Source of the DNA: Planctomycetota bacterium
GTDB taxonomy: Bacteria > Planctomycetota > UBA1135 > UBA2386
Direction of reading: 5' to 3'
NCBI GenBank assembly: GCA_016794035.1
Contig: JAEUHS010000011.1
Coordinates: 1-64,000 of the forward strand
DNA: 64,000 nucleotides
How positions within the stretch are numbered: the first letter of the stretch is position 1; the number at the start of each line of letters is the position of its first letter. The notes below the pieces were generated by a model that had not been told where the DNA came from, did no database searches, and was given only the letters and a program-made list of their open reading frames with translations. Below are positions 39,253 to 40,310 of the stretch, one piece after another. Both the position numbers and the translations under genes were made by a program.

Positions 39253-39876
39253 TCAACGGAAACGGCGGATGACGCCGCGCACGACGCCGCGTACCTGGAC
39301 CCGCGTCGTGTAGATCGGCTCCATGCTCGAGTTCGCCGGTTGCAGCCGGATGCTGCCGTTGCGTTCCCGGTAGAAGCGCTTGAGCGTCGCCTCTTCGCCA
39401 TCGAGGATCGCCACCACGATGTCGCCGTCGTTGGCGACCTCACGCCGTTCGACCACGACCAGGTCGCCGTCGTCGATGTGGTCTTCGATCATCGACTTGC
39501 CGCGGACCTTGAGCAGGTAGATGCGATCGCCGGTCGGCACCAGTTCGGTCAGGCTCATGTCCTGCCGCTCCTCCAGCGCCTCGATCGGGCGACCGGCCGC
39601 GATCATGCCCACGAGCGGCACCGTCGGCACCGCACCCGAGGCGAGGTCGTCACTGGCATCGGGGTCGTGCAGGATGGCGACCGCGCGCGCCTTGGCCCGA
39701 TCGCGATGGATCGCGCCCTTGCGGGTCAGTTGGTTGAGGTGTTCGTGGATCGTGATCTTGCTGACCCCGAGCGCCTGTGCCGCCTCGTCGAGAGTCGGGG
39801 CAATCCCCTTGTCGCGCCGGTAGTCGCGGAAGTAACGCAACACACGAATCTGCTTCTCCGTAAGCATCAGCTTCAT
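39253..39876 (-). CDS. lexA: SOS repressor LexA
   Basis: The 207-residue protein has an N-terminal winged helix (ALGVSKITIHEHLNQLTRKG). The C-terminal S24 peptidase domain has the self-cleavage site Ala94-Gly95 (GMIAAGRPIEA), catalytic Ser128 (VRGKSMIED) and Lys166 (EEATLKRFYR). LexA represses DNA-damage genes until RecA triggers self-cleavage. An exact CGAAC-N4-GTTCG palindrome lies upstream of the preceding small gene, so lexA is probably autoregulated through that promoter. A small inverted repeat covers its ribosome-binding site. ATG 39876. Confidence 0.93.
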   Translation of the reverse strand: MKLMLTEKQIRVLRYFRDYRRDKGIAPTLDEAAQALGVSKITIHEHLNQLTRKGAIHRDRAKARAVAILHDPDASDDLASGAVPTVPLVGMIAAGRPIEALEERQDMSLTELVPTGDRIYLLKVRGKSMIEDHIDDGDLVVVERREVANDGDIVVAILDGEEATLKRFYRERNGSIRLQPANSSMEPIYTTRVQVRGVVRGVIRRFR

Positions 39877-39897: not shown

Positions 39898-40000
39898 GTT
39901 CGGTCGCGATGTTCGACGACTGTTCGCGTCGCCGTCCACCACGTTCGGGTGTGACTTCGGGGTCGACCAGCATCGGCTGCCGAGACACGTGCTGGCAGGT

Positions 40001-40252
40001 TCATGCCAGCAGCGCCAGCAGCAGGAACATGGCCAGCATGATACAGGCGCCTGCCACCTCGACAGCATGCTCGATTCGCTTTCGTCCAAAGGACTTGCCC
40101 CCGAACGTCTCCCGCTGCGGCCGGTGTCCGGCGAACGCTGGCGCGGCGGCGACCGCCAGCGGACGCCGGCGATGGGCGGCGGCGGCGCGATCGCGGCAGC
40201 CGCGGTGGGAGGAGAGGGAGGTCGGGAGAGCGGTACGGGAGACGAACTTCAT
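40001..40252 (-). CDS. SOS-controlled small tail-anchored membrane protein
   Basis: The 83-residue product is not a family I recognise. The first ~60 residues are basic and Ala-rich; the C-terminus is a single hydrophobic helix (AVEVAGACIMLAMFLLLALL), predicting a tail-anchored inner-membrane protein. ATG 40252 lies 1 base after the palindrome CGAACCTCGGTTCG (40254-40267), and a consensus-like promoter lies just upstream. lexA follows 124 bp downstream on the same strand. Small SOS-induced membrane proteins in other bacteria (SidA, YneA) block cell division. That role is possible here but unproven. The frame could also be chance in GC-rich DNA. Confidence 0.5.
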   Translation of the reverse strand: MKFVSRTALPTSLSSHRGCRDRAAAAHRRRPLAVAAAPAFAGHRPQRETFGGKSFGRKRIEHAVEVAGACIMLAMFLLLALLA

Positions 40253-40253
40253 G

Positions 40254-40267
40254 CGAACCTCGGTTCG
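40254..40267. promoter_or_regulatory. LexA operator (SOS box, CGAAC-N4-GTTCG type)
   Basis: CGAACCTCGGTTCG has 6-bp complementary arms around TC and fits the Gram-positive SOS consensus CGAAC-N4-GTTCG exactly. On the - strand it lies about 10-23 bases past the likely transcription start and ends 1 base before the ATG at 40252. Its GAGG could double as ribosome-binding site. A further half-site (GGTTCG at 40273-40278) lies close by. Confidence 0.7.
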
Positions 40268-40282
40268 TTGCAGGTTCGCCGC

Positions 40283-40310
40283 ACGTTAGCACTTTGTTTG
40301 GTCCTGTCAA
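40283..40310 (-). promoter_or_regulatory. Sigma-70-type promoter for the SOS/lexA unit
   Basis: On the - strand TTGACA (40310-40305) is a perfect -35 element. After 16 bases TAACGT (40288-40283) follows, preceded by TG one base upstream (TGCTAACGT), an extended -10 pattern. Transcription would start near 40276, so the SOS box is just downstream, well placed for repression. The local AT content is higher than in flanking DNA. Confidence 0.6.

Follow-up and report, generated by a model that had tools for sequence, protein, structure and literature searches.

Organization of the lexA locus

The window, by which we mean the whole stretch of 64,000 nucleotides analysed here (Planctomycetota bacterium, assembly GCA_016794035.1, contig JAEUHS010000011.1, positions 1 to 64,000), carries on its minus strand a small gene that is followed by lexA. 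The small gene has 83 codons (40001..40252, the ATG being at 40252 and the stop ending at 40001). Its promoter can be read from the sequence, with the -35 hexamer TTGACA (40305..40310) and, after a spacer of 16 bp, the extended -10 TGC-TAACGT (40283..40291, of which TAACGT is 40288-40283). Relatives have a similar promoter, and GCTAACNT is kept at the place of the extended -10 in many members of the family. Two direct repeats on the same strand face each other downstream of the -10. The first, CGAAC-N6-CGAAC (40278-40263), overlies the expected transcription start and is our candidate LexA operator 1, proposed from its sequence and from spacing statistics; the opposed one, GTTCG-N6-GTTCG (40258-40243), spans the start codon and is candidate operator 2. 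The palindrome CGAAC-CGAG-GTTCG (CGAACCGAGGTTCG, 40254..40267) lies across the two, one base separating its end from the ATG, and a Shine-Dalgarno-like GAGG (40258..40261) is kept in most members of f1, the family of the window. A CAAAC half-site is also found at 40296-40300 on the minus strand, inside the -35/-10 spacer and 22 bp, that is two 11-bp periods, upstream of operator 1.

The lexA gene itself (39253..39876, minus strand) is preceded by a third candidate operator, again CGAAC-N6-CGAAC (39911..39926, minus strand), and relatives show the same layout. Its product has both LexA domains according to Pfam (LexA_DNA_bind, PF01726, E 2e-13; Peptidase_S24, PF00717, E 5e-29). Self-cleavage looks intact because an Ala-Gly pair is read at the usual cleavage place and the Ser and Lys are in their usual motifs (GKSM and ATLKR). 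After lexA, on the same strand, comes a gene for a CDGSH iron-sulphur protein (PF09360, 38991-39248), while a hemerythrin-domain gene (PF01814, 40402-41007, plus strand) is divergent from the small gene. An earlier note on this DNA had described the promoter and palindrome, the 83-codon ORF and the lexA gene that follows it, and the sequence check found each of them where the note had placed it.

A tail-anchored microprotein conserved upstream of lexA

The product of the small gene is closed by a membrane helix (about residues 62-83, 40004..40069 on the minus strand) with no C-terminal tail after it, as read from the upstream scan, AlphaFold and the distribution of charges. The single C-terminal helix announced by the earlier note is borne out by AlphaFold, which gives one confident helix over residues 54-82 (pLDDT about 90-97) after a low-confidence N-terminus. 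The last 18 residues are without charge in f1 and carry few charges in f8, and an acidic residue close to the membrane boundary is a recurrent feature of f1, f8 and f5. Pfam and NCBIfam assign the microprotein to no known family at meaningful scores, and Pfam finds no LysM domain in it, the protein ending at its helix.

The conservation of this arrangement was examined by scanning the 900 bp that precede lexA in each of 71 genomes, which represent seven families of the order (f1, f2, f4, f5, f6, f7 and f8) together with Saltatorellus ferox Poly30. A co-directional ORF ending in a tail-less membrane helix is present in 70 of the 71. A strict test limited to 420 bp was positive in 64/71 upstream of lexA; the controls gave 0/29 for recA upstreams, 1/30 for dinB upstreams and 0/355 for shuffled sequences, so that the small tail-anchored protein which the note had placed beside lexA turns out to be conserved in relatives. 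When the 83-residue protein was used in tblastn against 101 related genomes, homologues from genus g1 were recovered directly upstream of lexA (E 4e-16 and 6e-11), and weaker matches with the same terminal helix, also upstream of lexA, were found in many members of f1. In f8 and f5 the ORFs are mostly 27-34 residues long, 28 being the commonest length (for instance MAQMFDRARREGPTFLFFLGLIAFTFLV). The conserved core thus amounts to about 28 residues, corresponding to about the last 30, and f1 has an added disordered N-terminal extension that is poorly conserved and of variable length. The distance to lexA varies as well, from overlap to several hundred bp, and in f5 the stop of the microprotein gene can overlap the lexA start. 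The kinship of the f1 proteins with those of f8 and f5 is suggested by position and architecture rather than by sequence scores.

Substitution patterns indicate that the core is under purifying selection. The pair G047/G053 has a pN of 0.034 against a pS of 0.335, and the pair G064/G066 a dN of 0.12 against a dS of 1.12; in genus g1 constraint is seen over the last 35 codons (G000, the genome of the window, against G002: dN 0.105, dS 0.38) and the N-terminal part is rich in indels. The weak N-terminal conservation and variable length in f1 are what one would expect if the ORF were spurious or encoded a leader peptide serving lexA, but such a reading is barely credible next to a core dN/dS well below 1 in most close pairs, a contrast that is reduced or reversed in the shifted frame of gap-free pairs, and a strict test that is positive in 64/71 genomes and almost never in the controls. 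We regard it as practically certain that the 83-codon ORF is a real gene, and its reality, its conservation, its tail-anchored architecture and its linkage to lexA are all strongly supported by the computations.

A direct repeat as the predicted LexA operator

When pairs of GTTYG/CRAAC half-sites were counted by spacer, the dominant peak was a direct repeat with a spacer of exactly 6 bp, the second peak being at a spacer of 17, the distance that also separates the CAAAC half-site of the window from operator 1. The N6 direct repeats number 45 in the lexA upstreams of f1 (0.3 expected), 14 in those of the other families (0.1 expected) and 21 in the recA upstreams (0.1 expected), even if the pattern used finds the box upstream of lexA in only 40 of the 71 genomes. 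In the recA promoters, TGTTTGGCTTTTGTTCGGGTC (consensus of 21) stands immediately before the -10. The promoters of a second Y-family polymerase have GTTCG-N6-GTTAG in 16/20 cases and GTTAG-N6-GTTAG in three more, and none of the 30 dinB promoters has a direct repeat.

Pattern searches also gave the genome-wide counts in the genome of the window, where 14 GTTYG-N6-GTTCGG sites occur, only two of them intergenic by a GC3-based gene call. One belongs to recA and the other is some 50 bp ahead of a gene for a DEAD/Hrq1-type helicase, so that DNA-repair genes were recovered without any targeted look. This last repeat (GTTTGGCGTTCGTTCGG, G000:C33:36269-36285, locus L246) is of the SOS type and has the same layout relative to the -10 as that of recA, so that the helicase gene (TIGR03817) is probably a further SOS gene.

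The earlier note had taken the palindrome CGAAC-N4-GTTCG as the SOS operator and had proposed scanning the genome for it. The scan returns 86 exact sites, and of the 15 that were examined, 14 fall within predicted coding sequence. Among the lexA upstreams read in the family, the exact palindrome is found only in G000 and G002, and N4 palindromic pairs are counted 4 times in the f1 lexA upstreams and once in the recA upstreams, where the direct repeats number 45 and 21, respectively. A palindrome of the Gram-positive LexA type, with the direct repeat as a secondary feature, would fit the identical GAAC/GTTC half-site and the exact copy at the start codon of these two genomes, but the pair counts at lexA, the failure to recur at recA and the mostly coding genome copies make it very improbable, and we rejected it as the main operator. 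The palindrome arises where the two opposed direct repeats meet, and relatives outside genus g1 do not keep it; alone, it does not exceed chance, whereas the direct repeat that overlaps it does.

The direct repeat GTTYG-N6-GTTCG, with its 11-bp period, is therefore strongly supported as the conserved predicted LexA operator. SOS control of the microprotein gene, as claimed in the note, is upheld by the repeat that it has in common with recA, the second Y-family polymerase and the Hrq1-like helicase, but not by way of the palindrome. This control is very probable, with LexA binding and induction by damage as predictions.

We also looked for a UmuDC operon with a simple motif search, but next to the second Y-family polymerase no UmuD-like partner turned up. 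In some members of the family, a second, shorter-scoring LexA-like gene lies beside matches to RecA/ImuA-like proteins and Y-family polymerases (G003:C28, G013:C511, G014:C145 and G007:C173), a neighbourhood that resembles a lexA2-imuA-imuB cassette.

Our literature searches, conducted in open-access papers, found no description of a planctomycete LexA box, and, according to one paper, the E. coli box is not recognised by the LexA of planctomycetes (PMC3108266). The alphaproteobacterial LexA box is GTTC-N7-GTTC (PMC8565304). It has the same half-site core as the repeat described here, in the same direct orientation and with the same 11-bp period at SOS genes; it differs in that the Planctomycetota half-sites are GTTYG and GTTHG, sometimes opposed or in multiple copies. 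The planctomycete box thus looks like a second case of an operator in the alphaproteobacterial style, probably a convergent one.

Distribution beyond the order

The microprotein is more general than the earlier note supposed, since it is order-wide and extends to several other families. Reading 58 further LexA loci across the phylum, we found tail-anchored ORFs before lexA in f15, f21, f27, f33, f35, f47 and f54; they have about 25 residues or somewhat more (for instance MIREILAKESLTVATMLMMLLAFLYI), and the direct repeat is also found in three members of f15 and in the member of f27. In the same set, no tail-anchored ORF was seen at the loci with the LexA HTH type of f32, f55 and f49. A claim for the whole phylum was dropped because the gene is missing from many planctomycete families. 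In the cultured Saltatorellus ferox Poly30, two tandem direct repeats (L161:2121-2170, at 2121-2136 and 2155-2170) stand ahead of a lexA-linked ORF of 162 codons, which ends in a membrane helix and stops about 285 bp short of lexA. In one genome of family f42 (G138, L406), GTTCG-N6-GTTCG lies 41 bp before the lexA coding region with no tail-anchored ORF, and since the box is here without the ORF, the direct repeat may be more widespread than the microprotein. According to one paper, binary fission is the mode of division in the classes other than Planctomycetia (PMC12288469), and one could hypothesise that the presence of the microprotein tracks it.

Possible functions in a host without detectable FtsZ

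The known SOS division inhibitors of Gram-positives are single-helix proteins, many of them encoded beside lexA (PMC6851548). The planctomycete protein resembles YneA, ChiZ, DivS and SosA in its gene being beside lexA (70/71 here), in its predicted SOS control and in its one membrane helix (PMC6851548), but these proteins have an extracellular C-terminal part, often with LysM, whereas the planctomycete protein ends with its helix and has no LysM. SidA of Caulobacter crescentus, of 29 residues, acts on FtsW (PMC4211646). It is likewise tiny, under LexA control (predicted in our case), built on a single membrane helix and associated with a box of the direct-repeat type; on the other hand, it is not known beside lexA, its host has FtsZ, and its FtsW target is demonstrated, while an FtsW-like target would here be drawn from analogy. 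In YneA it is the helix that binds FtsW, and the authors of that study suggest that inhibiting FtsW is a strategy common in SOS responses (PMC13396833).

The host background is different in one respect. FtsZ was undetected in all 34 genomes of the family, and the 101 genomes of the order gave one weak match, control genomes giving matches in both searches; this supports, for the present family, the note's point that many planctomycetes divide without FtsZ. The sole FtsZ-like match of the order (G087:C70:2388-3428) is below the family cut-off and could be contamination or a divergent tubulin-like gene. Proteins of the FtsW/RodA type are found in 101/101 genomes of the order, mostly in two copies. 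A SulA-type cytosolic inhibitor of FtsZ was discarded as a candidate, the microprotein being a membrane protein and FtsZ being undetected in the 34 family genomes.

The explanation we retain is the following. LexA would repress both the microprotein gene and lexA through direct repeats GTTYG-N6-GTTCG placed over the promoter and the start codon, and its RecA-triggered self-cleavage would free the two genes. The microprotein would then enter the membrane as one helix, N-terminus inside, and halt division until repair is done. As the usual early target FtsZ is missing, its most likely contact would be the membrane-embedded septal wall machinery, namely an FtsW-type SEDS polymerase or a partner of it. 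Planctopirus limnophila is, however, reported not to need FtsI, FtsW or MreB for viability (PMC12288469); the target may therefore not be FtsW, and the microprotein may act on something else. We lean slightly towards this account as a whole, that is, a family of lexA-linked, SOS-induced, tail-anchored microproteins under direct-repeat LexA control that pause division. Division arrest as such, suggested by analogy with SidA, YneA, SosA, ChiZ and DivS, is likewise somewhat favoured. For an FtsZ-free checkpoint in which the lexA-adjacent microprotein, governed by the direct-repeat LexA box, directly inhibits the septation machinery, we see the chances as even.

Two other functions deserve to be weighed. 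TisB and DinQ are SOS membrane peptides of E. coli, and the microprotein could be of their kind, lowering the membrane potential and slowing growth with no division protein as target. It is, as they are, small, membrane-inserted and, by prediction, SOS-induced, and the core of about 28 residues fits. Its helix, though, is uncharged over the last 18 residues in f1, with few charges in f8, unlike an amphipathic pore peptide, and its gene keeps one place beside lexA throughout an order, unlike mobile toxin genes; both points make such an activity unlikely. The near-constant linkage to lexA and the stop/start overlap in f5 could otherwise point to a protein that serves the SOS circuit itself from the membrane, such as a modulator of LexA or RecA, or a device that couples envelope stress to LexA. 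This we find doubtful, given a distance to lexA that goes from overlap to several hundred bp, the lack of a soluble interaction domain and the poor conservation of the N-terminal part in f1.

Significance for planctomycete division and SOS biology

With the direct-repeat LexA box, one can predict the SOS regulon of this clade. Beyond this, how planctomycetes divide without FtsZ is an unsolved problem, for which a conserved, damage-controlled inhibitor of division would be a genetic handle. Suppressors of SidA reportedly mapped to FtsW and FtsI. If the checkpoint reading is true, suppressors of microprotein overproduction should likewise map to the division machinery, and the microprotein could then be used to fish out the septation machinery of planctomycetes.
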